A stretch of 9,450 nt of DNA from Candidatus Omnitrophota bacterium. GTDB lineage: Bacteria > Omnitrophota > Koll11 > Aquiviventales > Aquiviventaceae. Below the pieces are notes generated by a model. That model searched no databases. It had not been told where the DNA came from and saw only the letters and a program-made list of their open reading frames with translations. Position 1 is the first letter of the stretch, and each line of letters starts with the position of its first letter. The position numbers and the translations under genes are program-made. Shown one piece after another: positions 868 through 9,450 of this stretch. Location of the stretch: positions 1 to 9,450 of the forward strand of contig JACPXS010000058.1 in the NCBI GenBank assembly GCA_016196415.1. Direction: 5' to 3'.

Positions 868-902
868 ATCGAGCGCTCGATGCGGGCCACAGATTCGGCC
901 CG
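868..902. repeat. Palindrome and small hairpin downstream of the DJ-1/PfpI gene
   Basis: A perfect 14-bp palindrome ATCGAGCGCTCGAT (868-881) is followed directly by a 6-bp stem, CGGGCC (883-888) with GGCCCG (897-902), with an 8-nt loop. These lie 18-52 nt after the stop codon, where a terminator might sit. No T-run follows, so an intrinsic terminator is not supported. They could be a processing or protein-binding site, or chance in GC-rich DNA. Confidence 0.3.
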
Positions 903-950
903 TGGAATTCTCCCACAGACCCCCGCCAGGAGCGAACCCACCCCCGCTCA

Positions 951-1070
951 GGCACCCTGTTTGATCTGACCGGCCGTGTGGCGCTCGTGACCGGCGCCAG
1001 CCGAGGTCTTGGCGCCGCGATGGCTCGCGCGCTGGCCTGTGCCGAGGCGGATCTCATGACGTGTTCCCGT
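951..1070 (+). pseudogene. N-terminal remnant of a short-chain dehydrogenase/reductase (SDR)
   Basis: One + frame reads GTLFDLTGRVALVTGASRGL and continues through LGAAMARALA into a CSR-like end of the second strand. This is the first beta-alpha-beta unit of a classical SDR, with the NAD(P)-binding TGxxxGxG glycine motif (TGASRGLG, codons 990-1013). A complete SDR has about 250 residues with a Ser-Tyr-Lys catalytic set. Here similarity stops after about 40 residues at base 1070, exactly where a palindromic repeat begins. The frame then runs through repeat-derived codons to a stop just before 1173. No start codon with a ribosome binding site is evident. I infer a 3'-truncated pseudogene left after repeat insertion or deletion. 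The surviving piece is well conserved, so the event may be fairly recent. Confidence 0.75.
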
Positions 1071-1071
1071 T

Positions 1072-1112
1072 GGCGGGTTGGCGCGTTCAACGCGCCAACC
1101 CGCGAACGCGCT
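1072..1112. repeat. Inverted array of 8-nt units (AACGCGCC type)
   Basis: The two arms GCGGGTTGGCGCGTT (1073-1087) and AACGCGCCAACCCGC (1089-1103) form a perfect 15-bp inverted repeat around a single central C. Each arm is built from 8-nt units: GGCGGGTT and GGCGCGTT on the left; AACGCGCC, AACCCGCG and AACGCGCT on the right. The same unit recurs at 4071-4102. The element abuts the broken end of the SDR remnant. It encodes nothing recognisable. Confidence 0.85.
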
Positions 1113-1136
1113 ACCGCGCAAACAAGACTTTCTATC

Positions 1137-1165
1137 TTGACAGAATTGGTAGGATATCCTACACT
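1137..1165 (+). promoter_or_regulatory. Strong sigma70-type promoter of the Rrf2 gene
   Basis: A consensus -35 TTGACA (1137-1142) is separated by 17 bp from TACACT (1160-1165), a good -10 box. The predicted start point is near 1171-1173, only about 4-6 nt before the ATG at 1177. The purine-rich AGGAG at 1171-1175 ends one base before the ATG, too close to act as a normal Shine-Dalgarno site. The message is therefore predicted to be leaderless or nearly so. Confidence 0.7.
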
Positions 1166-1174
1166 ACAGTAGGA
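1149..1174. promoter_or_regulatory. Operator-like half-site cluster, probable Rrf2 autoregulation
   Basis: A perfect 14-bp palindrome GTAGGATATCCTAC (1149-1162) lies in the promoter spacer and overlaps the -10 box. A third half-site GTAGGA (1169-1174) covers the predicted start point, making TCCTAC-N6-GTAGGA with the second. Three copies of one hexamer in the core promoter of a regulator gene are typical of an autorepressor site. Binding of the adjacent Rrf2 protein here is inference. Confidence 0.6.
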
Positions 1175-1176
1175 GC

Positions 1177-1695
1177 ATGAAACTTTCCACGCGATCTACC
1201 TATGGGATGCGGGCGCTGGTGGAACTCGCCCTGAGTTCAGGGCGAGGGCCGGTGTCAGCCTCCTCGATCGCCAAGCGCCAGGATCTTTCGGTAGCATACC
1301 TCGAGCAGCTCCTCCACCGCCTCAAGAAACACGGATTGATCAACAGCGTTCGGGGCCCGCGCGGGGGCTACGTCCTGGCGCGCGATTCACACACGATGAC
1401 GATGGCGGAAGTCGTCGCGGTGCTTGAGGGGAACCATGGAACGCATCACAACGGCACGCGGCGATCGATGGGCAGCGGGAAAGGCCGCGCGCCGAACCGG
1501 GTGTCGCCCAAATCGTCCAGGGTGCCGGCGGAGGAATCCCATCGGCACGCCCAGCGCATTGCGCAGGCCGTGTGGCGCTGCGTCCACGAGCGACTCACGG
1601 AATCGCTCGGAACGGTGACGCTTCAGGATCTGTGTGATGAAGTGCGAACGGAAGCGGGGGAGCCGCTGGATCATCGGTATGTGTTCCATATCTGA
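1177..1695 (+). CDS. Rrf2-family transcriptional regulator lacking the Fe-S cysteine cluster
   Basis: The 172-residue protein starts MKLSTRSTYGMRALVELAL, the usual N-terminus of the family, which fixes the start. A winged helix-turn-helix occupies about 1-85: recognition-helix region near 39-52 (VAYLEQLLHRLKKH) and wing SVRGPRGGYVLAR at 57-69, then the helix MTMAEVVAVLEG. IscR-type members then have three closely spaced cysteines that ligate an Fe-S cluster. Here that region (86-130) is a long, basic, low-complexity linker with no cysteine but several histidines (H87, H90, H91, H122, H124). The dimerisation helix region VWRCVHERLTESLGTVTLQDL (132-152) is kept and holds C135; C153 follows directly. 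The protein probably binds DNA as a dimer but senses something other than a classical Fe-S cluster. Its targets are unknown apart from its own likely operator. The spacing and the repeat array downstream suggest it is not co-transcribed with the cyclo-ligase gene. Confidence 0.88.
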   Translation: MKLSTRSTYGMRALVELALSSGRGPVSASSIAKRQDLSVAYLEQLLHRLKKHGLINSVRGPRGGYVLARDSHTMTMAEVVAVLEGNHGTHHNGTRRSMGSGKGRAPNRVSPKSSRVPAEESHRHAQRIAQAVWRCVHERLTESLGTVTLQDLCDEVRTEAGEPLDHRYVFHI

Positions 1696-1707
1696 GGAAG
1701 AGCACGG

Positions 1708-1791
1708 AGTCACAAGGCCACCAGGTCACCACGTGACAAGGGAACGCTTCCGACCAACGTAGTGACGCGGTGACCTGGTAACGGGGTAACG
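1708..1791. repeat. Inverted array of 8-nt units (GGTCACCA type)
   Basis: The left arm reads as four consecutive octamers (1708-1739): AGTCACAA, GGCCACCA, GGTCACCA, CGTGACAA. The right arm (1760-1791) reads TAGTGACG, CGGTGACC, TGGTAACG, GGGTAACG. The cores CCAGGTCACC (1721-1730) and GGTGACCTGG (1769-1778) are perfect inverted repeats. A further GTGACC lies at 1800-1805. The array fills the gap between the Rrf2 and cyclo-ligase genes and encodes nothing recognisable. It has the same design as the repeats at 1072-1112 and 4023-4105 but a different unit sequence. Confidence 0.75.
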
Positions 1792-1811
1792 TTCTTGTTG
1801 TGACCTGGGGC

Positions 1812-2363
1812 ATGACGAAGGATCAGTTACGGCACGTGTTTCTACGTCGGTTGAAACAACAGAAGGAGAACGATCGACGTCGAAGGAGTGAAGCGATTCG
1901 GCGGAAGGTGTTTCGCCTGAACGCGTTTCGGCGGGCCAACGTCGTATGCTGCTACGTGGCGCTGCCGTATGAGGTGCAGACCTGGCGGATGATTGAAGGC
2001 ATGCTGTCCCGAGGAAAGCGAGTCGCCGTTCCGGTGACCCGGCCACGCACGAAACGGCTGTGGTTGTCCGAGGTGCGCGCTCCAGCGACCGAACTCGCTC
2101 GCAGCACGTTCGGCGTGTGGGAGCCGATCCCATCGGCAAGACGGCCGGTTCGGTTGGAGGAGATCGATCTCGTGCTGGTGCCGGGACTCGCGTTTGATCG
2201 GCGCGGGCACCGGTTAGGGCACGGCTCCGGGTACTTCGACCGCTTCCTTGCGTGCGTGCCGAAGGGCACGCCAACCGTGGGATTGGCATTTCGGTTTCAG
2301 CTGCTCAATTGCCTGCCAGTTGCTGCGCACGACCACGCCGTTCAGACGATCCTCACCGCCTAA
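1812..2363 (+). CDS. 5-formyltetrahydrofolate cyclo-ligase (MTHF synthetase)
   Basis: This cytosolic enzyme uses ATP to convert 5-formyl-THF to 5,10-methenyl-THF, returning the storage or inhibitory folate to the one-carbon pool. The 183-residue product is of normal family length. It begins MTKDQLR, followed by a basic helix (RRRRSEAIRRKVF, 22-34). The strand CCYVALPYEVQTWRMI (46-61) corresponds to the family's substrate-binding EV(D)T segment, and GVWEP lies at 101-105. The signature VPGLAFDRRGHRLGHGSGYF (123-142) carries the ATP-binding glycine-rich loop and continues DRFL. The C-terminal GLAFRFQLL and HDHAVQTILT match the family ending. A GTG at 1800 would add MTWG, but the family N-terminus favours ATG 1812. 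Neither has a convincing ribosome binding site. In other bacteria this gene is often next to rny, which agrees with its place here. Confidence 0.93.
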   Translation: MTKDQLRHVFLRRLKQQKENDRRRRSEAIRRKVFRLNAFRRANVVCCYVALPYEVQTWRMIEGMLSRGKRVAVPVTRPRTKRLWLSEVRAPATELARSTFGVWEPIPSARRPVRLEEIDLVLVPGLAFDRRGHRLGHGSGYFDRFLACVPKGTPTVGLAFRFQLLNCLPVAAHDHAVQTILTA

Positions 2364-2377
2364 CCCGCCCTTCATCG

Positions 2378-2419
2378 CCGAGTGACAGGCACGCTGTTGA
2401 AACCGTGCCTGTCACTCGG
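2378..2419. repeat. Perfect 16-bp hairpin between the cyclo-ligase gene and rny
   Basis: CCGAGTGACAGGCACG (2378-2393) pairs perfectly with CGTGCCTGTCACTCGG (2404-2419) around a 10-nt loop. It begins 15 nt after the cyclo-ligase stop. The stem is followed by AAAAG on the + strand and by no T-run on either strand, so it is not a standard intrinsic terminator. It could stabilise or separate mRNA segments. The GTGACAGGCAC core resembles dispersed REP-like palindromes of other bacterial genomes, but that link is from memory only. Confidence 0.8.
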
Positions 2420-2445
2420 AAAAGAATGGTGGCTGACGATTGAAT

Positions 2446-2452
2446 GAGGTGA
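2446..2452 (+). promoter_or_regulatory. Ribosome binding site of rny
   Basis: GAGGTGA lies 7 nt before the ATG at 2460. It is one of only two clear Shine-Dalgarno sites in the window and fixes the start just before the membrane anchor. Confidence 0.8.
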
Positions 2453-2459
2453 CACGGCG

Positions 2460-4016
2460 ATGGGATGGATTCTCCTAGCGTTCATGGCGATTGTCGCGGC
2501 GGCGTTTGGCGGCGGCTATTGGTTGCGCGTCCTGCTCAGCCGCAAGCTGTTGAGCAGCGCTGAGCTCAAATCCAAAGAGCTCTTGGAGGGGGCTGGGCGG
2601 CAAGCCGAAACCATTACCAAGCAGGCCGAGCTTGAAGCCAAGGAGCACCTGCACGCGCTCCGGCAGGAATTTGAGGAGCGGACGAAAGAGCGCCGCAATG
2701 AGCTGACACAGCTCGAAAAGCGGCTCCACCAGCGAGAGGAGCTGCTGGACCGGAAGTTGGACCAGCTTGATCGCAAGGAAAAAGATCTGGCCGATCGCGA
2801 CCGACAGCTCACCGCGCGTGAACAAGGGCTGAAAACCAAAGATGACCAGCTAGGGCAGCTCATCGAGGACGAAAAGGGCAAGCTCAAAACCATCTCAGGG
2901 TTGGGCGCGGAGGAAGCCACGCAGTTACTGCTTTCCCGCTTAGAGCAGGATTGCCGGACGGAAGCCGGCATGATGATCAAGCAGGTCGAGGAGCAGGCGA
3001 AGCGCGACGCCCAACTGCTCGCCAAGCGCATCCTCGTGGAGACGATGCAGCGGTGCGCGGCCGAGTTCACGGTAGAGACAACGACGGCGGTCATTCAGCT
3101 CCCCAACGAGGACATGAAGGGCCGCATCATCGGCCGTGAGGGCCGTAACATCCGAGCCTTTGAGCTCGCCACCGGCGTGGACCTCATCGTGGACGATACG
3201 CCGGACGTGGTGACGCTTTCCTCATTTGATGTGGTCCGCCGGGAAATCGCGAAGCAAGCGCTGGAACGGTTGATGTCCGATGGCCGCATCCATCCCGCCA
3301 GGATCGAAGAGATGGTGGAGAAGGTGAAGCGGGAATTTGCCCAGCACATCGTCCAGGAAGGGGAGAGGACGATCAACGAGCTGGGAGCGCTCGGCGTGAA
3401 CCACGAGCTGGTCAAGCTGCTCGGGCGGCTGCGATACCGGACGAGCTATGGGCAGAACGTGTTGCTGCACGTCAAGGAGACCGGCTACCTCTGCGGCATG
3501 ATCGCCGCGGAACTCGGGTTGGATCAGCGGTTGGCCCGTCGCTGCGGCTTGCTGCACGACATCGGCAAGGCGGTGAGCCATGAAGTCGAAGGGCCGCACG
3601 CCATCATCGGGGCTGAGCTGGCGAAGAAGTACGGAGAGTCCCCGGACGTCGTCCACGCCATCGAAGCGCACCATGAAGATGTGCCGCCGAACTCCCTGAT
3701 GGCGGTGTTGACCATCATCGCCGATTCCATCAGCGGCTCGCGTCCCGGGGCGCGCGGCGACACGCTGGAGAACTACGTCAAGCGGCTCCAGGCGCTGGAA
3801 GCGATTTGCGATGCCTTCAGCGGGGTGGAGAAGGCCTACGCCATCCAAGCCGGCCGCGAGGTGCGGGTCATCGTCCAGCCGGAGCGGGTCACCGACTTGG
3901 AAGCGATCGCGCTCTCGCGGGAGATCAAGAAAAAGGTGGAGACCTCCGTCGAGTTTCCCGGGCAGATTAAGATCATCGTCATCCGCGAAACCCGTTCGAT
4001 CGAATATGCCCGGTAA
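2460..4016 (+). CDS. rny: Ribonuclease Y (membrane-anchored endoribonuclease)
   Basis: RNase Y starts bulk mRNA decay by single-strand endonucleolytic cleavage at the inner face of the membrane and is a core of degradosome-like assemblies in bacteria without RNase E. The 518 residues match the usual length of about 520. A single N-terminal membrane helix (about 3-26) is followed by a long charged coiled coil (about 32-145, rich in K, E, R and Q). A KH RNA-binding domain (about 208-275) carries the loop GRIIGREGRNIR (221-232). The HD phosphohydrolase domain has candidate metal ligands H337, H366-D367 in LLHDIGKA, H404/H405 in EAHHED and D422 in ADSIS. The C-terminus SIEYAR is typical. The gene is preceded by a strong ribosome binding site and followed by ymdB, its common partner, here separated by a repeat array. 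All expected key residues are present. Confidence 0.98.
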   Translation: MGWILLAFMAIVAAAFGGGYWLRVLLSRKLLSSAELKSKELLEGAGRQAETITKQAELEAKEHLHALRQEFEERTKERRNELTQLEKRLHQREELLDRKLDQLDRKEKDLADRDRQLTAREQGLKTKDDQLGQLIEDEKGKLKTISGLGAEEATQLLLSRLEQDCRTEAGMMIKQVEEQAKRDAQLLAKRILVETMQRCAAEFTVETTTAVIQLPNEDMKGRIIGREGRNIRAFELATGVDLIVDDTPDVVTLSSFDVVRREIAKQALERLMSDGRIHPARIEEMVEKVKREFAQHIVQEGERTINELGALGVNHELVKLLGRLRYRTSYGQNVLLHVKETGYLCGMIAAELGLDQRLARRCGLLHDIGKAVSHEVEGPHAIIGAELAKKYGESPDVVHAIEAHHEDVPPNSLMAVLTIIADSISGSRPGARGDTLENYVKRLQALEAICDAFSGVEKAYAIQAGREVRVIVQPERVTDLEAIALSREIKKKVETSVEFPGQIKIIVIRETRSIEYAR

Positions 4017-4022
4017 CCGGTT

Positions 4023-4105
4023 AACGCGTTGGCGCGTTTTCGGGGTTGCGCGTTCTGCCGGTCAAGGCGTAACGCGCCAACGCGCCAACGCGCCAACGCG
4101 CCAAC
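4023..4105. repeat. Inverted array with four tandem AACGCGCC units between rny and ymdB
   Basis: The right arm is four exact tandem copies of the octamer AACGCGCC (4071-4102), with a partial AAC after them. The left arm (4023-4054) carries complementary units AACGCGTT, GGCGCGTT, a divergent one and GCGCGTT. Aligned as a 32-nt inverted repeat, about 25 positions pair across a 16-nt spacer (4055-4070). The array begins 7 nt after the rny stop and ends 10 nt before the ymdB ATG, filling the whole gap. It uses the same unit as the element at 1072-1112. Copy-number change would alter the ymdB leader but not its protein. Confidence 0.88.
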
Positions 4106-4115
4106 CGACGTCCTC

Positions 4116-4922
4116 ATGAAGATCCTCCTGATTGGCGATATCGTGGGGCGCCCAGGCCGGGCGATTGTCGAAGGCGACGTGATTCGCCTCCGGCAGGAGC
4201 GCGCAATTGACTTCGTCATCGCAAACTGTGAAAATGCTGCCGGGGGCGCCGGGATCACGCCACACATCGCCGATGACCTCTTCCGCGCAGGGGTGGATGT
4301 CTTGACGTCGGGCAACCACGTCTGGAAGAAGCGGGAAGCGTTCGAGCTCCTTAATCTCGACCACCGCATCATCCGGCCGGCAAACTATCCCACCGGCGCG
4401 CCCGGGACAGGGTCGACCATCATTGAAGCGCTCTCCGGTCAGAAAGTCGGCGTGCTGAACGTCATGGGCCGGGTGTTCATGGAACCGCTGGACTGCCCCT
4501 TTCGGACCGCGGAGCGGGAGCTCGAGCGCCTGAAGCTGGTGACGCCGGTCATCATTGTCGATATGCACGCCGAAGCGACGAGCGAAAAAGTGGCGATGGG
4601 CTGGTTCCTCGATGGGAAGGTCTCCTGCGTGTTCGGCACGCACACGCATATCCCCACGGCCGATGAGCGCATCCTGCCGCGCGGGACGGCGTTCATCACG
4701 GATGTGGGGATGACCGGCCCCTATGATTCCGTCATCGGGCGCCGCGTGGACCAGATCCTTCAGCGGTTCCTCTCCAATATCCCGAACAAATCCGAAGTGG
4801 CGGAAGACAACATCCAGCTCCGGGGGTTGCTCGTTGAGGTCAACCCCGTCACCGGCAAGGCGGTCGCCGTGGAGCGCATCACCCGCACCCTGCAAGGAGC
4901 GATTCGTGAGCGCGGTGACTGA
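4116..4922 (+). CDS. ymdB: YmdB-type metallophosphoesterase (TIGR00282 family, 2',3'-cyclic nucleotide phosphodiesterase)
   Basis: The 268-residue protein is a full-length member of the calcineurin-like family whose Bacillus subtilis member YmdB hydrolyses 2',3'-cAMP and influences mRNA levels, motility and biofilm choice. The dinuclear metal site is visible in order: D8 in GDIVG, E39 in NCENA, N67-H68 in SGNHVW, H151 in DMHAE, and H176 and H178 in FGTHTHIPTAD. The ATG at 4116 gives the family N-terminus MKILLIGDIVGRPGR. The upstream in-frame extension from 4029 only translates the octamer repeat and is rejected. No ribosome binding site is visible, as the repeat array occupies the leader. 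2',3'-cyclic nucleotides are products of RNA breakdown, which fits the pairing with rny. The 3' end overlaps xseA by 17 nt. Confidence 0.95.
   Translation: MKILLIGDIVGRPGRAIVEGDVIRLRQERAIDFVIANCENAAGGAGITPHIADDLFRAGVDVLTSGNHVWKKREAFELLNLDHRIIRPANYPTGAPGTGSTIIEALSGQKVGVLNVMGRVFMEPLDCPFRTAERELERLKLVTPVIIVDMHAEATSEKVAMGWFLDGKVSCVFGTHTHIPTADERILPRGTAFITDVGMTGPYDSVIGRRVDQILQRFLSNIPNKSEVAEDNIQLRGLLVEVNPVTGKAVAVERITRTLQGAIRERGD
4894..4899 (+). promoter_or_regulatory. Ribosome binding site that fixes the GTG start of xseA
   Basis: AAGGAG lies inside the 3' end of ymdB, 6 nt before GTG 4906. The xseA frame stays open further upstream to 4723, but that part is the out-of-frame ymdB sequence. This site decides for the GTG. 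Confidence 0.8.
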
Positions 4923-6228
4923 TCGGCTTGCCGCTCGACCCGCCGCGTGGGAGAACGGCCGCGGGCCCGTCGCAGAAGGCGCGGCGATCCTCTCCGTGGC
5001 GGAGGTGGTCTCGCGCATCCGCTGGGTCATCGAGCGGCAGTTTCCCGCGCCGATCTGGGTGGAGGGGGAGCTCTCCAACTGCAGCTACCCGACGTCGGGG
5101 CATATCTACTTCAGTCTCGTCGATGACCAGGTGACCGATCGGGTTGGCCAGCGGGTGCTGCTTCCCTGCGCGTTTTTCCGCGGCGCGAACCAGCATCTCA
5201 AGTTTCAGTTGACCGACGGATTGAAAGTGCTCTGCCTTGGTGACGTGACCACCTATGAGGGACGCGGGCAGTATCAGCTCCGGGTGCTTCGGGTCGAACC
5301 GCGGGGGATCGGCGCGCTTCAACTGGCGTTTGAACAGCTCAAGAAACGGTTGCAAGCGGAAGGGTTATTCAGCGAGGCCCGCAAGCGCCCGATGCCACGG
5401 ATCGTGCATCGGGTGGGGGTGATCACGTCGCCCTCGGGCTCGGCGATCCATGACATGGTGAGCAAGCTCCGCGGCCACTTCCGCGTCGTCATCCTGCCGG
5501 CGAAAGTGCAGGGCGAAGGGGCGTCCGCAGAGATCGTCGAGGCGCTCGGCGCGGCCAACCGGCTTGCGATCGCCGACGTCCTCATTGTCGGACGCGGGGG
5601 CGGGGGGATTGAAGATTTGTGGGCCTTCAATGAAGAAGCGGTGGCGCGGGCCATCGCCCGTTCGCGCATTCCGGTCATCTCGGCGGTCGGGCATCACGAT
5701 GACTGGACGATCGCGGACTACGTGGCCGATCTGAGGGCCTCCACGCCGACGGATGCCGCCAAGCTCCTCGTCCATGAGCGGCAGACGGTGCTCGAAGCAT
5801 TCCGGCGGCGCATCGAGCAGCTCCTCGACACCATGCAGGCGTTTCTGGATGCGCAGTCATCCCGCGTCAACGAGTTGCGTCTGCGTCTGCGGGCGGTGCA
5901 TCCCGTCAATCAACTGAACCACTCTGTGGATCGCGCGCGCCAGTTGCAGGATCAAGCCATCCAATCCATGCGCCACCGGCTCGAGAGCGAGGACCGCCGC
6001 CTCCAGGGGTTGGCGGGACGGCTGCAAGCGCTCAGCCCGTTGGCGGTGCTGGCGCGCGGCTACAGCATCACGCTGAAGCTCCCGGACCGCCATGTCGTCA
6101 CCTCGGCCGGCGCGCTCCAAACCGGAGATGAGATGGAAACCTTGCTGGCTCGCGGGCGGGTGGTGAGCGCCGTGACGCGCGTCAGCGCGCAGATGCCTCC
6201 ATCGGACAGCCATGGCTCAAGCGCCTGA
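4906..6228 (+). CDS. xseA: Exodeoxyribonuclease VII large subunit
   Basis: XseA is the catalytic subunit of exonuclease VII, which degrades single-stranded DNA from both ends to oligonucleotides in repair; several small XseB chains wrap its coiled coil. The 440-residue product has the N-terminal OB fold (about 27-132, with VEGELSNCS and GHIYFSLVDD), the catalytic domain (about 165-290), a long coiled coil (about 290-375) and the C-terminal SPLAVLARGYSI motif (377-389). Catalytic positions reported for the E. coli enzyme are present: D183 (AIHD), R230 (RGGG), H263 and D266. The last two lie in GHHDD instead of the usual GHETD, so the two intervening residues are unusual. GTG start with a good ribosome binding site; 17-nt overlaps with both ymdB and xseB suggest translational coupling. 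The start is some 25 residues upstream of the conserved core. Confidence 0.97.
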   Translation: MSAVTDRLAARPAAWENGRGPVAEGAAILSVAEVVSRIRWVIERQFPAPIWVEGELSNCSYPTSGHIYFSLVDDQVTDRVGQRVLLPCAFFRGANQHLKFQLTDGLKVLCLGDVTTYEGRGQYQLRVLRVEPRGIGALQLAFEQLKKRLQAEGLFSEARKRPMPRIVHRVGVITSPSGSAIHDMVSKLRGHFRVVILPAKVQGEGASAEIVEALGAANRLAIADVLIVGRGGGGIEDLWAFNEEAVARAIARSRIPVISAVGHHDDWTIADYVADLRASTPTDAAKLLVHERQTVLEAFRRRIEQLLDTMQAFLDAQSSRVNELRLRLRAVHPVNQLNHSVDRARQLQDQAIQSMRHRLESEDRRLQGLAGRLQALSPLAVLARGYSITLKLPDRHVVTSAGALQTGDEMETLLARGRVVSAVTRVSAQMPPSDSHGSSA

Positions 6229-6484
6229 GATCAAATACGAAGACGCGCTCAAGCGGTTGGAAAAGCTGGTCGCTGAGCTGGACCGCGCCGAGCTCGATCT
6301 CGAAGCCCGGTTGAAGAAGTTTGAAGAGGGCACGAAACTCGCCCGGCTGCTCCTCAAAAAGCTCGACCAGGCCAAGAAGAAAGTCGAAGTACTGGTGAAG
6401 ACGCATGTCGGAGAGCCCGAGCTGGTGCCGTTCGACGATGAGGGAGCGGATGCGGAGGGGGAAATGGAAGAGCCCAAGGCCTGA
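6212..6484 (+). CDS. xseB: Exodeoxyribonuclease VII small subunit
   Basis: This is the non-catalytic partner that binds the XseA coiled coil and controls the nuclease. The 90-residue protein has the two-helix family signature: YEDALKRLEKLVAELDRAEL (9-28), then DLEARLKKFEEGTKLARLLL and KKLDQAKKKVEVL. The acidic tail after residue 66 (FDDEGADAEGEMEEPKA) is longer than the core needs and probably disordered. The ATG lies within the end of xseA (17-nt overlap) and no clear Shine-Dalgarno site is seen, so translation probably depends on termination of xseA. Confidence 0.95.
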   Translation: MAQAPEIKYEDALKRLEKLVAELDRAELDLEARLKKFEEGTKLARLLLKKLDQAKKKVEVLVKTHVGEPELVPFDDEGADAEGEMEEPKA

Positions 6485-6487
6485 GCG

Positions 6488-7396
6488 ATGATCGCGCCTT
6501 CCGATCTTGCGGAGCGCACCAGTCGCGCACAAGCCGTTGGGCACGAGCCGCAACCGACCGCTTGCCGGCGCCTTGAGCGGTTGCGCGCCCTGGTCAACCA
6601 GGCGTTGGCTAGGACGTTGCCCCAGGTCGCCCGCGTGCCGCGGGTGATCCATGAGGCCATGCGCTACTGCGTGTTTTCCGGCGGGAAGCGTTTTCGGCCG
6701 CTGTTGTGCTTGGGCGGATGCGAGGCGGTGGGGGCCCCGGCGCGCCGGGCGCTGTCGGTGGCCTGTGCGGTGGAGTTGCTGCACACCTACTCGCTCGTCC
6801 ATGATGATCTGCCCGCGATGGACAACGCCGATCAGCGTCGAGGACAGCCGACCTGCCACCGCAAGTTTGGCGAGGGAAACGCCATCTTGGTCGGCGACGG
6901 GCTGTTGACGCTGTCCTTTGCCTTGCTCAGCCGCAACGGCCTTCCAAACGTCCTTCCCATCATCCGCACGCTGGGCGAGTCGTGTGGGACCGCCGGCCTG
7001 ATTGGCGGCCAGGTGTTGGACCTGCAAGTGATCAGCCAGCCTCGGACGGCGACCGAGCAAGCCCTGAGAGACATCGCCCAGCGCAAGACGGCTGCGTTGA
7101 TCACCGCGAGCATCGTTGCGGGGGGGCTGGCGGGGAACGCCCAGGCCCAGCAGCTTGCGTGGCTGCGGCGCTACGGGCAGGCCATCGGGCTCGCGTTTCA
7201 GCTGATTGATGACGTGCATGATGACGAGGGCTTGGCGCGGGTCATGGGGGCCGACCAGGCGCGAGCCGAGGCGCGCCGGCTCATCGGACGCGCCCTGAAC
7301 GCCGTGCGCCCATGCGGCGCGCGGGCCGCCACGCTTCGACACCTGGCTGAGTGGTTGGCGGACACGGCGTCGCTCCCGGCAGCGCCTGGATTATGA
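6488..7396 (+). CDS. ispA: Short-chain polyprenyl diphosphate synthase (IspA-like, probably FPP or GGPP)
   Basis: The enzyme condenses isopentenyl diphosphate with allylic diphosphates. The 302-residue product carries GGKRFRP (65-71), the first aspartate-rich motif D106-D107 to D112 (DDLPAMD) with RRGQPT after it, the GQVLDL helix (174-179), K200 in RKTAAL and a second aspartate-rich motif D241-D242-x-x-D245 in FQLIDDVHDD. The preceding HTYSLVHDD resembles bacterial type II FPP synthases. Unusual: after the second motif the stretch that in E. coli IspA has the GK...GKSTYP lysine loop is absent, and the chain passes directly from DDEGLARVMGADQ to the next helix. The N-terminal 25 residues are extra and variable. 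Start ATG lies 3 nt after xseB; dxs follows after 1 nt, so product and precursor supply are encoded together. Chain length is not decided by the sequence. Confidence 0.9.
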   Translation: MIAPSDLAERTSRAQAVGHEPQPTACRRLERLRALVNQALARTLPQVARVPRVIHEAMRYCVFSGGKRFRPLLCLGGCEAVGAPARRALSVACAVELLHTYSLVHDDLPAMDNADQRRGQPTCHRKFGEGNAILVGDGLLTLSFALLSRNGLPNVLPIIRTLGESCGTAGLIGGQVLDLQVISQPRTATEQALRDIAQRKTAALITASIVAGGLAGNAQAQQLAWLRRYGQAIGLAFQLIDDVHDDEGLARVMGADQARAEARRLIGRALNAVRPCGARAATLRHLAEWLADTASLPAAPGL

Positions 7397-7397
7397 C

Positions 7398-9353
7398 ATG
7401 ACGACGGCCCTCCTTGAGCGCATCCATCGTCCCGCGGATCTCAAAGCGTTGACGGTCGCGCAGCTCTCGCTGCTGGCCCAGGAGATTCGCGAGGAGCTGG
7501 TGCAGACGATCGCCGGGCTGGGCGGCCATCTCGCCTCCAGCCTGGGGGCGGTGGAACTCTGCCTGGCCGTGCACGACGTCTTCGAGGCGCCTGATGACCA
7601 GCTGGTGTGGGATATGGGCTATCAGGCCTTCGCGCATAAGCTCATCACGGGACGGCGAGATCGATTTCAGACGCTCAAGCAGTTTGGCGGCCTCTCAGGG
7701 TTCAACCACAAAGACGAAAGCCCGTACGATCTCTTCACGACGGGCCACGGGGGGACGGCCCTCTCGACGGCGTTAGGGCTGGCGCTCGCGCGCGATCAGG
7801 TGAAGGGGTCCCGCCATGTCGTCGCGATCATCGGGGATGCGAGCCTCGGCGAGGGCATGGCGCTCGAAGCGCTGAACCACATCGGCCATCTCAAGTCCAA
7901 CATCCTCGTGATCCTGAACGACAACAAGATGTCCATCGCCAAGCCGGTGGGGGGCTTGAGCCGCTATCTGAACCGGATCATCACCAACCCGACGTACAAC
8001 CGCATCCGGCGGGACATCGAGCAGCTCATGGAGCGGCTCCCGCACGGCTCCCAGCTCGTCCGCTTGGGGCGAAAAGTTGAGGAGTCGCTCAAAGGCCTCC
8101 TCATTCCTGGGCTGGTCTTTGAAGAGCTGGGATTCCGCTATGTGGGTCCCATCGACGGCCACAACTTCCGCGAGCTCATCACGACGCTCAACAACGTCAA
8201 GCGCCTGAACGGACCGATCCTCTTGCACGTCTCCACGGTGAAGGGCAAAGGCTATCGGTTCGCGGAAGCGGATCCGGAACGGTTCCACAAGATCGACCCG
8301 TTCGACATCGCGACCGGCCAGCTCAAGGTTCAAGGTTCAAAGTTGAAGGCGAAACCTCGAACCTCGAACCTCGAACCTTCAGCGACGTTCACGGAGGCGT
8401 TCAGCGATGAGCTCCTCCATCTCGGGGAGGGAAATAAGCGGGTTGTGGTGATCACGGCCGCGATGCCTGAGGGGACGGGGGTGAGCGCCTTCGCCAAGCG
8501 CTACCCGGCCCGGTGCCTCGACGTCGGGATGGCGGAGCAGCATGCCGTGGGCTTGGCCGCCGGCCTGGCGCGCGGCGGGGCGCGCCCGATCGTGGCGATC
8601 TACTCCACCTTCCTCCAGCGCGCGTATGACCAGATCATGCACGAGGTGTGCTTGCAGGAGCTGCCGGTGATCTTGGCGATCGACCGCGCCAGCCTCGTCG
8701 GTGAGGACGGGCCCACCCATCACGGGGTGTTTGATATCGCCTACCTGCGGGTGTTTCCGCGCCTGATCATTGGCTCGCCCAAAGATCCGGCGGAGCTTCG
8801 GGCGATGCTGCAATGGGCTATCGAGCAGGAGCATCCGGTTGCCCTGCGCTATCCAAGAGGCGGGATTATTTGCGGGGAGCCGCTTGGCAAATCGGCGAAG
8901 ATCGTCGCCGGGAAGTCTGAGACGCTGCGCTCAGGGAAAGACCTGGCGCTGCTTGCGCTGGGGAGCATGGTCTATCCTGCGCTCAAGGTGGCCGAGGAGC
9001 TTGCCCGAGAAGGGGTTGACGCCCACGTCGTGAACGCGCGATTCGTCAAACCCCTGGACGAGGAGATGGTGAAGCACGCAGCTCGCCTGGGAGCGGTGGT
9101 GACGCTGGAAGAAGCGCAACTCGCCGGCGGGTTCGGCAGCGCCGTCTCAGAAACGCTCAGCGCGTTGGAGCTGCCCGGCATCCCGCATCTGCGCATTGGG
9201 CTCCCTGACCAATTTGTGGAGCACGGCAAGCGCGAGGAGCTGCTGACGCTCTGCCGACTGGACCCCGACAGCCTCACGAAGCGCATCACCGCATGGCATC
9301 ACGCCCTCAACCTTCCGACAGCGTTTCGCCTCCTCGCCGAATCTTCCGCGTAA
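7398..9353 (+). CDS. dxs: 1-deoxy-D-xylulose-5-phosphate synthase
   Basis: Dxs makes DXP from pyruvate and glyceraldehyde-3-phosphate with thiamine diphosphate, the entry step of the MEP isoprenoid pathway. The 651-residue product has all three domains. The TPP/Mg site has D147 (IGDAS) and N176 (NDNK), 29 residues apart as in E. coli. H44 (GGHLAS), H255 (DGH), the pyrimidine-activating E380 (AEQHAV), the segment IYSTFLQRAYDQ (401-412) and the C-terminal IGLPDQFVEHG (600-610) are present. Departures from the usual family are WDMGYQ for WDVGHQ (Y75 replaces His), GHGGTALS for GHSSTSIS, and GDASLGEG for GDGALTGG. Residues 310-325 are encoded by an in-frame inverted repeat in the linker between domains I and II. 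The gene begins 1 nt after ispA and ends the housekeeping cluster. Confidence 0.97.
   Translation: MTTALLERIHRPADLKALTVAQLSLLAQEIREELVQTIAGLGGHLASSLGAVELCLAVHDVFEAPDDQLVWDMGYQAFAHKLITGRRDRFQTLKQFGGLSGFNHKDESPYDLFTTGHGGTALSTALGLALARDQVKGSRHVVAIIGDASLGEGMALEALNHIGHLKSNILVILNDNKMSIAKPVGGLSRYLNRIITNPTYNRIRRDIEQLMERLPHGSQLVRLGRKVEESLKGLLIPGLVFEELGFRYVGPIDGHNFRELITTLNNVKRLNGPILLHVSTVKGKGYRFAEADPERFHKIDPFDIATGQLKVQGSKLKAKPRTSNLEPSATFTEAFSDELLHLGEGNKRVVVITAAMPEGTGVSAFAKRYPARCLDVGMAEQHAVGLAAGLARGGARPIVAIYSTFLQRAYDQIMHEVCLQELPVILAIDRASLVGEDGPTHHGVFDIAYLRVFPRLIIGSPKDPAELRAMLQWAIEQEHPVALRYPRGGIICGEPLGKSAKIVAGKSETLRSGKDLALLALGSMVYPALKVAEELAREGVDAHVVNARFVKPLDEEMVKHAARLGAVVTLEEAQLAGGFGSAVSETLSALELPGIPHLRIGLPDQFVEHGKREELLTLCRLDPDSLTKRITAWHHALNLPTAFRLLAESSA
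8324..8373. repeat. In-frame inverted array of 7-nt units inside dxs
   Basis: The left arm has CAAGGTT twice and CAAAGTT (8324-8344). The right arm has AACCTCG twice and AACCTTC (8353-8373), around an 8-nt loop. As a 20-nt inverted repeat (8325-8344 with 8353-8372), 17 of 20 positions pair. It encodes residues KVQGSKLKAKPRTSNL of Dxs and keeps the frame. The E. coli linker at this place is shorter by about 11 residues. Confidence 0.82.
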
Positions 9354-9450
9354 GCCTGCGGCCGGTTCGGAGCCCGGAGTTCGGAGCGGGGCTCGAGACC
9401 TACCTGATGCACGAATTGCTGGCCTGGCGGGACTACGTCTCCGGCGAGCC
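9350..9450 (+). pseudogene. C-terminal fragment resembling DUF4143 / AAA_14-type ATPase, runs off the window
   Basis: The frame overlapping the end of dxs reads VSLRPVRSPEFGAGLETYLM and continues HELLAWRDYVSGEP to the window edge. The pattern FGxxLExxLxxELLAWRDY resembles the start of the DUF4143 C-terminal domain found behind AAA_14 ATPase domains, where an (F)G-x-x-(L/F)E segment precedes an E-L-x-A-x-x-x-Y helix. A full protein of this type has about 400 residues, with a P-loop ATPase in front. Here the upstream DNA is dxs, so the ATPase half is missing. The frame does have an ATG at 9293, but residues before about 9350 are only dxs sequence read out of frame. I infer a 5'-truncated gene fragment joined directly to the end of dxs. 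A short bona fide gene start cannot be excluded, because only about 34 residues are visible. Confidence 0.45.

Follow-up and report, generated by a model that had tools for sequence, protein, structure and literature searches.

We analyzed a 9.45 kb stretch of an uncultured Omnitrophota genome (the window) and observed four inverted arrays in it, together with one further hairpin. Each array has two opposing arms, and the arms are tandem runs of units of 7 or 8 nt. In the window and its relatives we observed this period, an excess of inverted arrangements, a preferred arm length, several unit families, a fixed polarity of the arms, gain or loss at orthologous sites and, in one case, a change by one whole unit. 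We favour, with some reserve, the reading that the arrays are a genome-wide class of elements in the sampled Omnitrophota, in which a process that reads the arms disperses or keeps them in pairs and slippage homogenises each arm. The description of the arrays is well supported; the underlying process is what we infer from it.

Four inverted arrays in the window

Array A (1068-1108, period 8) has the unit CGTTGGCG / CAACGCGC and a 3-nt loop, and its tandem stretch continues to about position 1123. It is placed at the end of a truncated short-chain dehydrogenase (SDR) gene, upstream of an Rrf2 regulator. Array B (1720-1779, period 8), the weakest of the four, has a GGTCACCA-like unit and a 24-nt loop. 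It sits between the Rrf2 gene and 5-FCL, and the period survey placed a tandem stretch at 1762-1791. Array C (4018-4107, period 8, unit AACGCGCC) occupies most of the spacer between rny and ymdB; its 3' arm (4071-4105) is perfect over 35 nt, with 4.4 copies, and its 5' arm is degenerate. Array D (8321-8383, period 7) is made of AAGGTTC in the 5' arm and AACCTCG in the 3' arm. It is not intergenic and lies in frame within dxs, between the N-terminal and pyrimidine-binding domains. No strand is assigned to the arrays.

Tandem Repeats Finder reported period 8 at 1068-1087, 1088-1123 and 4071-4105 and period 7 at 8323-8349 and 8353-8378; array B was missing from its list for the window. The arms of array D had 3.9 and 3.7 copies and the 5' arm of array A had 2.5. 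By eye, and uncounted, one arm was frequently cleaner than its partner.

We compared the hairpins of the window with those of 300 second-order Markov shuffles of the same sequence. There were 5 hairpins scoring at least 13 (shuffle mean 0.38, maximum 3) and 3 scoring at least 16 (shuffle mean 0.017), while the excess at 11 or more was small (5 against 3.1). None of the shuffled hairpins scoring at least 13 had arms periodic at 7 or 8 nt, compared with 4 of the 5 real ones (best arm lag 7 or 8). The fold z scores of arrays A to D as single-stranded DNA, relative to dinucleotide shuffles, were -5.7, -2.5, -4.8 and -3.5. A chance origin was therefore rejected, as hairpin and period counts were above those of the shuffles. 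The four arrays of the original prediction are thus real, with their bounds corrected to those given above. Its view that they share one architecture with changing units also held: one dispersed repetitive extragenic palindrome (REP) or miniature inverted-repeat transposable element (MITE) behind all four was rejected, because units and loops differ.

The strong single-strand folds would suit transcription terminators or RNA-stabilising hairpins in spacers, as would the location of the array in the spacer examined, where it directly follows the rny stop codon. None of the seven terminator-like hits in 900-8500 (loops of 3-8 nt; a total close to the shuffle mean of 5.4) fell within the four arrays, and for loops of up to 8 nt none of them showed a GC hairpin followed by a T-run, as in an intrinsic terminator. 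Stem pairing was not kept beyond the level of the unit, and array D lies inside a coding sequence. We consider such a role very unlikely. With Rfam, zero matches to a known RNA family reached the gathering score.

Presence and absence at the rny-ymdB spacer

The left border of this spacer is rny (2460-4016, plus strand; Pfam PF12072, PF00013 and PF01966), which encodes RNase Y, and the right border is ymdB (4116-4922, plus strand; PF13277). The RNase Y of the window shared 70-91% identity with its counterpart at 17 loci. The titles of sixteen of these give Omnitrophota or Omnitrophica, and that of the remaining one gives Planctomycetales. This last locus (L013) groups with Omnitrophota in the RNase Y tree in spite of its title. 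We use our own labels for loci (L) and genomes (G).

An array was present in the spacer of 9 of the 17 close relatives (L001, L002, L004, L007, L009, L010, L011, L015, L021). In 7 of the 17 it was absent and the spacer measured -4 to 30 nt (L003, L005, L008, L012, L013, L014, L016); L006 carried another palindrome instead. Presence and absence at orthologous sites, proposed earlier as a check, was thus observed. The units mostly differed between loci, with one common to L002 and L004 and one to L007 and L015. Clean filled and empty pairs were L011 and L008, L021 and L219, and L222 and L016, the last two differing by the array at 86% DNA identity over 3.6 kb.

In the wider set the spacer was readable in 62 of 94 rows; in 22 others there was no adjacent ymdB, and the rest gave no match. 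As read off the table, 15 of the 62 had a hairpin of at least 11.5 whose best lag, 7 or 8, reached 0.6 or higher, one of them being a Methylomirabilota locus (L061). Five more (L023, L027, L030, L035, L066) looked array-like by eye and were under the threshold. On the RNase Y tree (35 rows, 32 labelled, L006 scored as none) the array label needed 10 changes, compared with a mean of 10.9 for shuffled labels (198 of 500 as low), and well-supported branches forced at least 6. In this tree the array labels of L023, L027 and L030 were given by eye, with no hairpin of 9 or more there.

Other short palindromes were seen in the rny-ymdB spacers of L047, L054, L055, L020 and L037 (for example GTAGGGGCGGTTCGCGAACCGCCCCTAC, or GGGACTGTCCCC), so this spacer tolerates several element types.

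In-frame arrays in dxs

The gene dxs (7398-9353, plus strand) encodes 1-deoxy-D-xylulose-5-phosphate synthase and carries array D in its linker. We cut out the linker DNA for 15 of 18 loci and observed a period-7 array, in frame, in 7 of them (window, L001, L006, L007, L010, L015, L021). Lag-7 scores were 10.8-30.8 in these seven linkers and at most 8.6, at lags 7 and 8, in the others. Four linkers scored as lacking an array (L008, L009, L014, L016) gave p = 0.03-0.07 against mononucleotide shuffles. Among the 120 homologues listed of 7998 scored, the region aligned to window residues 290-345 ranged from 48 to 87 residues. The 7-nt period of the DNA within a coding sequence argues against an origin as a protein repeat. 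The arrays thus add an in-frame peptide to a core metabolic enzyme. Another palindrome-like element, 69 nt (23 codons) long, is inserted in frame in dxs of L006 (10207-10275) and is absent from L008.

The rny-ymdB spacer and the dxs linker serve as natural replicates across species, where the same place is empty or carries different words with similar arm size. Both sites speak against hairpin copying, and against arm size being set in general by quadruplexes; they also open the generator of the arrays to test by comparison of strains.

Survey of related genomes

Our statements on whole genomes rest on relatives, not on the genome of the window itself. The sample consisted of 138 loci from seven Omnitrophota genomes, with 1.74 Mb of called bases; 11 of the loci, across five genomes, were nearly all N, and the period counts exclude N. 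From G001-G004 contigs 1-20 were taken unseen. The stretches of G007, G008 and G072 were picked partly for pattern hits, and their densities are biased upwards.

We detected 276 tandem arrays with periods 4-14. Period 7 accounted for 162 and period 8 for 33, compared with approximately 0.7 and 2.0 in shuffled sequence. In six samples there were 15, 39, 16, 22, 49 and 16 period-7 arrays against 0-0.33 in shuffles. The original prediction would have been contradicted by counts equal to those of shuffled sequence; the observed counts were higher in all seven samples, clearly so in six.

Pairing was assessed for 200 arrays of period 7 or 8 from six samples, with period-14 arrays that had a heptamer signal treated as period 7. 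An inverse partner within 150 nt was found for 102 of the 200 (a number that includes both arms of some pairs) and a direct partner for 7, compared with 2.2 in a shuffled-unit control. These made 70 distinct pairs, 58 of period 7 and 12 of period 8, with a median span of 87 nt and a median gap of 21 nt. According to crude calls of open reading frames (ORFs), which cover 89% of the bases, 48 pairs lay between ORFs, 5 at edges and 17 inside.

Unit families and arm polarity

Every sampled genome contained several unit families, the largest of which ranged from 2 arrays (G003) to 18 (G002), as well as singletons. Ten same-genome families had three or more pairs with arms alike. The unit of array C, as AACGCGCC dimers with at most one mismatch, gave 22 overlapping hits in G007, 10 in G008 and 1 in G013, and none in the remaining 14 of 17 relatives. 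The units had been described as specific to each locus; this did not hold, since in the relatives a genome carries its larger families at many loci.

The polarity of the arms was the same in all 89 informative same-family comparisons within a genome and opposite in none. Between genomes, 50 comparisons agreed and 5 disagreed. The purine-richer arm was the 5' arm in 51 of the 70 pairs. Loops of the same family (both at least 15 nt) reached a score of 12 in 4 of 60 comparisons, three of them within one contig, compared with 1 of 178 for different families. Flanks scored at least 14 in 0 of 177 same-family and 1 of 854 different-family comparisons.

Within a family the units had near-fixed and variable positions, and the variable ones were not clearly contiguous. 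A contiguous layout of four fixed plus three variable positions did no better than column-permuted units (period 7, 0.829 against an expected 0.807; period 8, 0.769 against an expected 0.791).

An arm that arose as a hairpin copy of its partner, or that was maintained as an exact stem, should agree with it in the order of the unit variants. When unit order was permuted, the true order had a mean percentile of 0.415 against the expected 0.5 (44 testable of the 70 pairs; Wilcoxon p = 0.02), that is, towards a worse match between the arms. Permuted orders matched the partner arm no worse than the true one, and hairpin-templated copying was therefore not supported. The likeness of units was 0.82 and 0.845 within the arms and 0.795 between them (68 pairs). 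As unit order is not mirrored and likeness is higher within an arm, each arm seems to have been homogenised alone.

Arm size

For both periods the most frequent arm length was four units plus two or three bases: 30-31 nt in 41 of 116 period-7 arms and 34-35 nt in 13 of 24 period-8 arms. Arm length thus scales with the unit. This mode exceeds the detection limit, and the median arm size across measurements was 4.3-4.6 units. A typical arm therefore presents five evenly spaced cores, being four units plus two or three bases.

G-quadruplexes would explain a preference for four units, as the need for four G-tracts matches the four-unit bias described in the Xanthomonas account (PMC4692102). Repeated G-tracts were rare here: just 15 of 140 arms had three or more GGG tracts or three or more CCC tracts (median 4.43 units), and 41 of the 140 had no GG or CC at all, with a median of 4.29 units. 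The near-equal size makes quadruplexes an unlikely general cause of the preference. As an explanation of the arrays we regard them as extremely improbable, with G-rich families as the place where they could still apply.

How arrays change

L030 and L035 are 98% identical over 8 kb, and the differences between their rny-ymdB spacers are a single base and one unit of exactly 7 nt; the inverted part of this array was judged by eye. This exact difference supports slippage. L035 and L018 are two RNase Y loci of one assembly, G100, which is for this reason probably a mixed bin. Between L018 and L019 (92.5% identity) both arms were mostly kept, the loop was unalignable and the length of one arm differed. 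In sister-genome comparisons of L260, L261 and L254 with G100 one arm was largely kept and the rest had changed, the comparison of L254 resting on match coordinates.

Local generation of each array from a different seed, by a slippage array followed by strand switching into an inverted arm, would fit the whole-unit difference between L030 and L035 and the greater likeness of units within arms than between them. We nevertheless consider it unlikely, since the order of units is unmirrored between arms (percentile 0.415), same-family loops and flanks are mostly unrelated, and the families recur across loci and partly across genomes with the polarity given above. From the earlier proposal of slippage and hairpin-templated copying on different seeds, slippage is supported by this one case; the copying was not supported by the permutation test, and separate seeds for each locus are not supported either, because families recur with fixed polarity in 89 of 89 same-genome comparisons.

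Filled and empty sites would also be produced by non-autonomous mobile elements of MITE or REP type, in which a transposase moves the whole hairpin and the loops diverge fast. Clean pairs of this kind were seen at rny-ymdB and for an element of L257 (18341-18549) with AATAACC-like units and a weaker 7-nt periodicity (0.63). G100 lacks this element at a clean site, where 4 nt (AAGG) may represent a target duplication. Dozens of further matches to its family occur in G039 and G100, and some of these extend across the whole 156-nt interior. Genes with the Y1_Tnp domain were found in 12 of the 17 relatives. Against this explanation, most loops show no relation between copies of one family (4 of 60, control 1 of 178), and many families in one genome would demand many specificities. 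Y1_Tnp, the one mobiliser family searched for, was not found in G010, G015 and G017, which have spacer arrays; as these genomes are incomplete, this is a weak argument. A Pfam scan of the ten ORFs of the window found no mobiliser either, in agreement with the original prediction. We hold mobile elements to be a possible, though rather unlikely, general explanation.

Interpretation of the arrays

According to the reading we favour, the unit of each family would serve some factor or process as a motif in which certain positions are fixed and others wobble. The factor or process would act on the arms rather than on the loop or an exact stem. Pairs of arms would end up at sites that tolerate them, such as spacers and protein linkers, and slippage would later homogenise each arm separately.

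Several observations weigh against this reading. No inverse partner was detected at threshold for 98 of the 200 arrays, and the 102 paired ones are fewer as independent pairs, both arms being counted in some. The seventh sample, G003, had few period-7 arrays (5 in 0.24 Mb versus 0 in shuffles). Periods 9 (16 arrays), 12 (18) and 14 (28) were likewise above shuffles, the last at least partly as doubled heptamers. In dxs a hairpin of at least 11 was present in only 4 of the 7 array-bearing linkers (window, L007, L015, L021). Among 63 more distant loci periodic hairpins were few, and several of them were A/T-rich. The changes in L260, L261 and L254 relative to G100 show that arms are not always kept as pairs, and the L257 family, dispersed with a conserved interior in the manner of a MITE, indicates that the class may be mixed. 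Constraint on the units and homogenisation of the units are indistinguishable with these data. Finally, no mobiliser or binding protein was identified for the class.

Selected binding sites for proteins or RNA, for instance of nucleoid proteins or for single-strand binding, which would arise and persist through binding of the arms and be dispersed by recombination, would account for the fixed and wobble positions within a family, for the preferred arm size in units and for the location of most pairs outside long ORFs (48 of 70). The pairs of Geobacter were interpreted in this manner in the account of PMC2700814. The turnover is fast for such sites, with 8 of 17 close relatives lacking the array at rny-ymdB; the in-frame location in dxs would be odd for a regulator, and no binding protein is known from this analysis. 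We regard this explanation as tentative and somewhat improbable.

A hypothetical template-directed extension (telomerase-like, or by a reverse transcriptase with a short repeating template) that adds an identical array to both 3' ends of a chromosomal break, followed by rejoining, is a speculative idea to which we give very little credence. If true, it would yield inverted arms with one fixed polarity and a defined unit number, separated by unrelated filler, and one word per template, and thus several families per genome.

Other features of the window

The gene order of the window is DJ-1/PfpI, SDR remnant, Rrf2 regulator, 5-FCL, rny, ymdB, xseA, xseB, polyprenyl synthetase and dxs. The SDR remnant (975-1070) ends at array A and has matches in L010 and L012. 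It covers profile positions 1-32 only, with 24 bits, under the curated cut-off.

The fifth hairpin (GAGTGACAGGCACG / CGTGCCTGTCACTC, 2365-2432, z = -8.2) lies just downstream of 5-FCL. Its arms are non-periodic, and it is another kind of element. It had no match among the sampled relatives' loci; a palindrome in the rny-ymdB spacer of L006 resembles it by look. Just past dxs, at 9365-9386, there is a weak 7-nt tandem stretch of GTTCGGA with 3.1 copies. It may be an arm of another array, although up to the end of the window a partner was not noticed.

A GC-rich stretch of approximately 100 nt (75-195) resembles copies in G002 (L193, L199, L200, L205), mostly at 75-91% identity. It had 29 matches among the sampled relatives' loci, these four included, and is a dispersed element. 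The xseA genes of L001 (6354-7328) and L012 (10449-11429) were merely 28-32% identical to xseA of the window, compared with 59-71% in the other relatives that have it. A search of the relatives' loci with the window xseB gave no match for L001 and L012. In both the xseA gene has probably been replaced.

Comparison with known systems

REP/REPIN and Rickettsia palindromic elements are dispersed palindromes with a sequence conserved in each family and without periodic arms of 7 or 8 nt; the Rickettsia elements also occur in frame inside genes. REP elements associated with RAYT (TnpA-REP) have one conserved palindrome per family and a GTAG tetranucleotide. The arrays described here have no conserved palindrome per family, as their arms are periodic and their loops mostly unrelated. 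The conserved interior of a MITE was lacking in the pooled families and present in one other family, that of L257. What we observed corresponds to inverted pairs of heptanucleotide or octanucleotide arrays: the units are tandem and 7 or 8 nt long, the two arrays lie near each other on opposite strands, and an array has approximately four units. A literature search on Omnitrophota with tandem and inverted repeats found no paper.

The heptanucleotide repeats in P6b of the Nostoc tRNA-Leu intron were reportedly first described by Costa et al. in 2002. As presented in PMC3488679, these degenerate heptamers pair into a hairpin and vary in copy number, as do the arrays here, but they occupy a single intron site and are not dispersed. 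An excess of bacterial heptamer repeats is on record, and slippage, quadruplexes and regulator sites were proposed in the accounts concerned, from individual genomes. The TAACTGA repeats of Beggiatoaceae (MacGregor 2015, PMC4679880) are likewise short, dispersed and mostly intergenic heptamer arrays, with a mechanism given there as not evident to the author. They differ in being direct arrays (one inverted of 170 sets) of one word, mostly just upstream of start codons.

Closer systems are found in Geobacter and Xanthomonas. Each member of the multicopy pairs called "global regulator binding site" in Geobacter metallireducens (classes 1-3; PMC2700814, 2009) has three to five repeats in tandem, most of them 7 or 8 nt long; the pairs lie on opposite strands at variable distance and form several families in one genome. 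They were interpreted as IHF/HU sites. The portion of that paper that we compared contains no orthologous-site comparison, nor does it give a modal arm length for the families together or an in-frame example of a paired class. In Xanthomonas, 70 (Xcc) and 75 (Xac) convergent inverted pairs of GGGAATC heptamer arrays were described (Rehm et al. 2015, PMC4692102). They resemble ours in their fixed and variable positions, the preference for four units, the mostly intergenic location and the variation in length between related species. According to that account there is one G-rich unit type there, tied to quadruplexes, whereas the arrays described here form many families, G-tracts are missing from most arms, the period is 7 or 8 depending on the family, and one orthologous site carries different units in different species.

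In summary, inverted pairs of heptamer or octamer arrays are already published for Xanthomonas and, in several families, for Geobacter metallireducens. What the present analysis adds is a preferred size shared by families and periods, a fixed arm polarity in copies whose loops are mostly unrelated, differing units at one orthologous site, arrays lying in frame in dxs, and arguments against two of the causes proposed.

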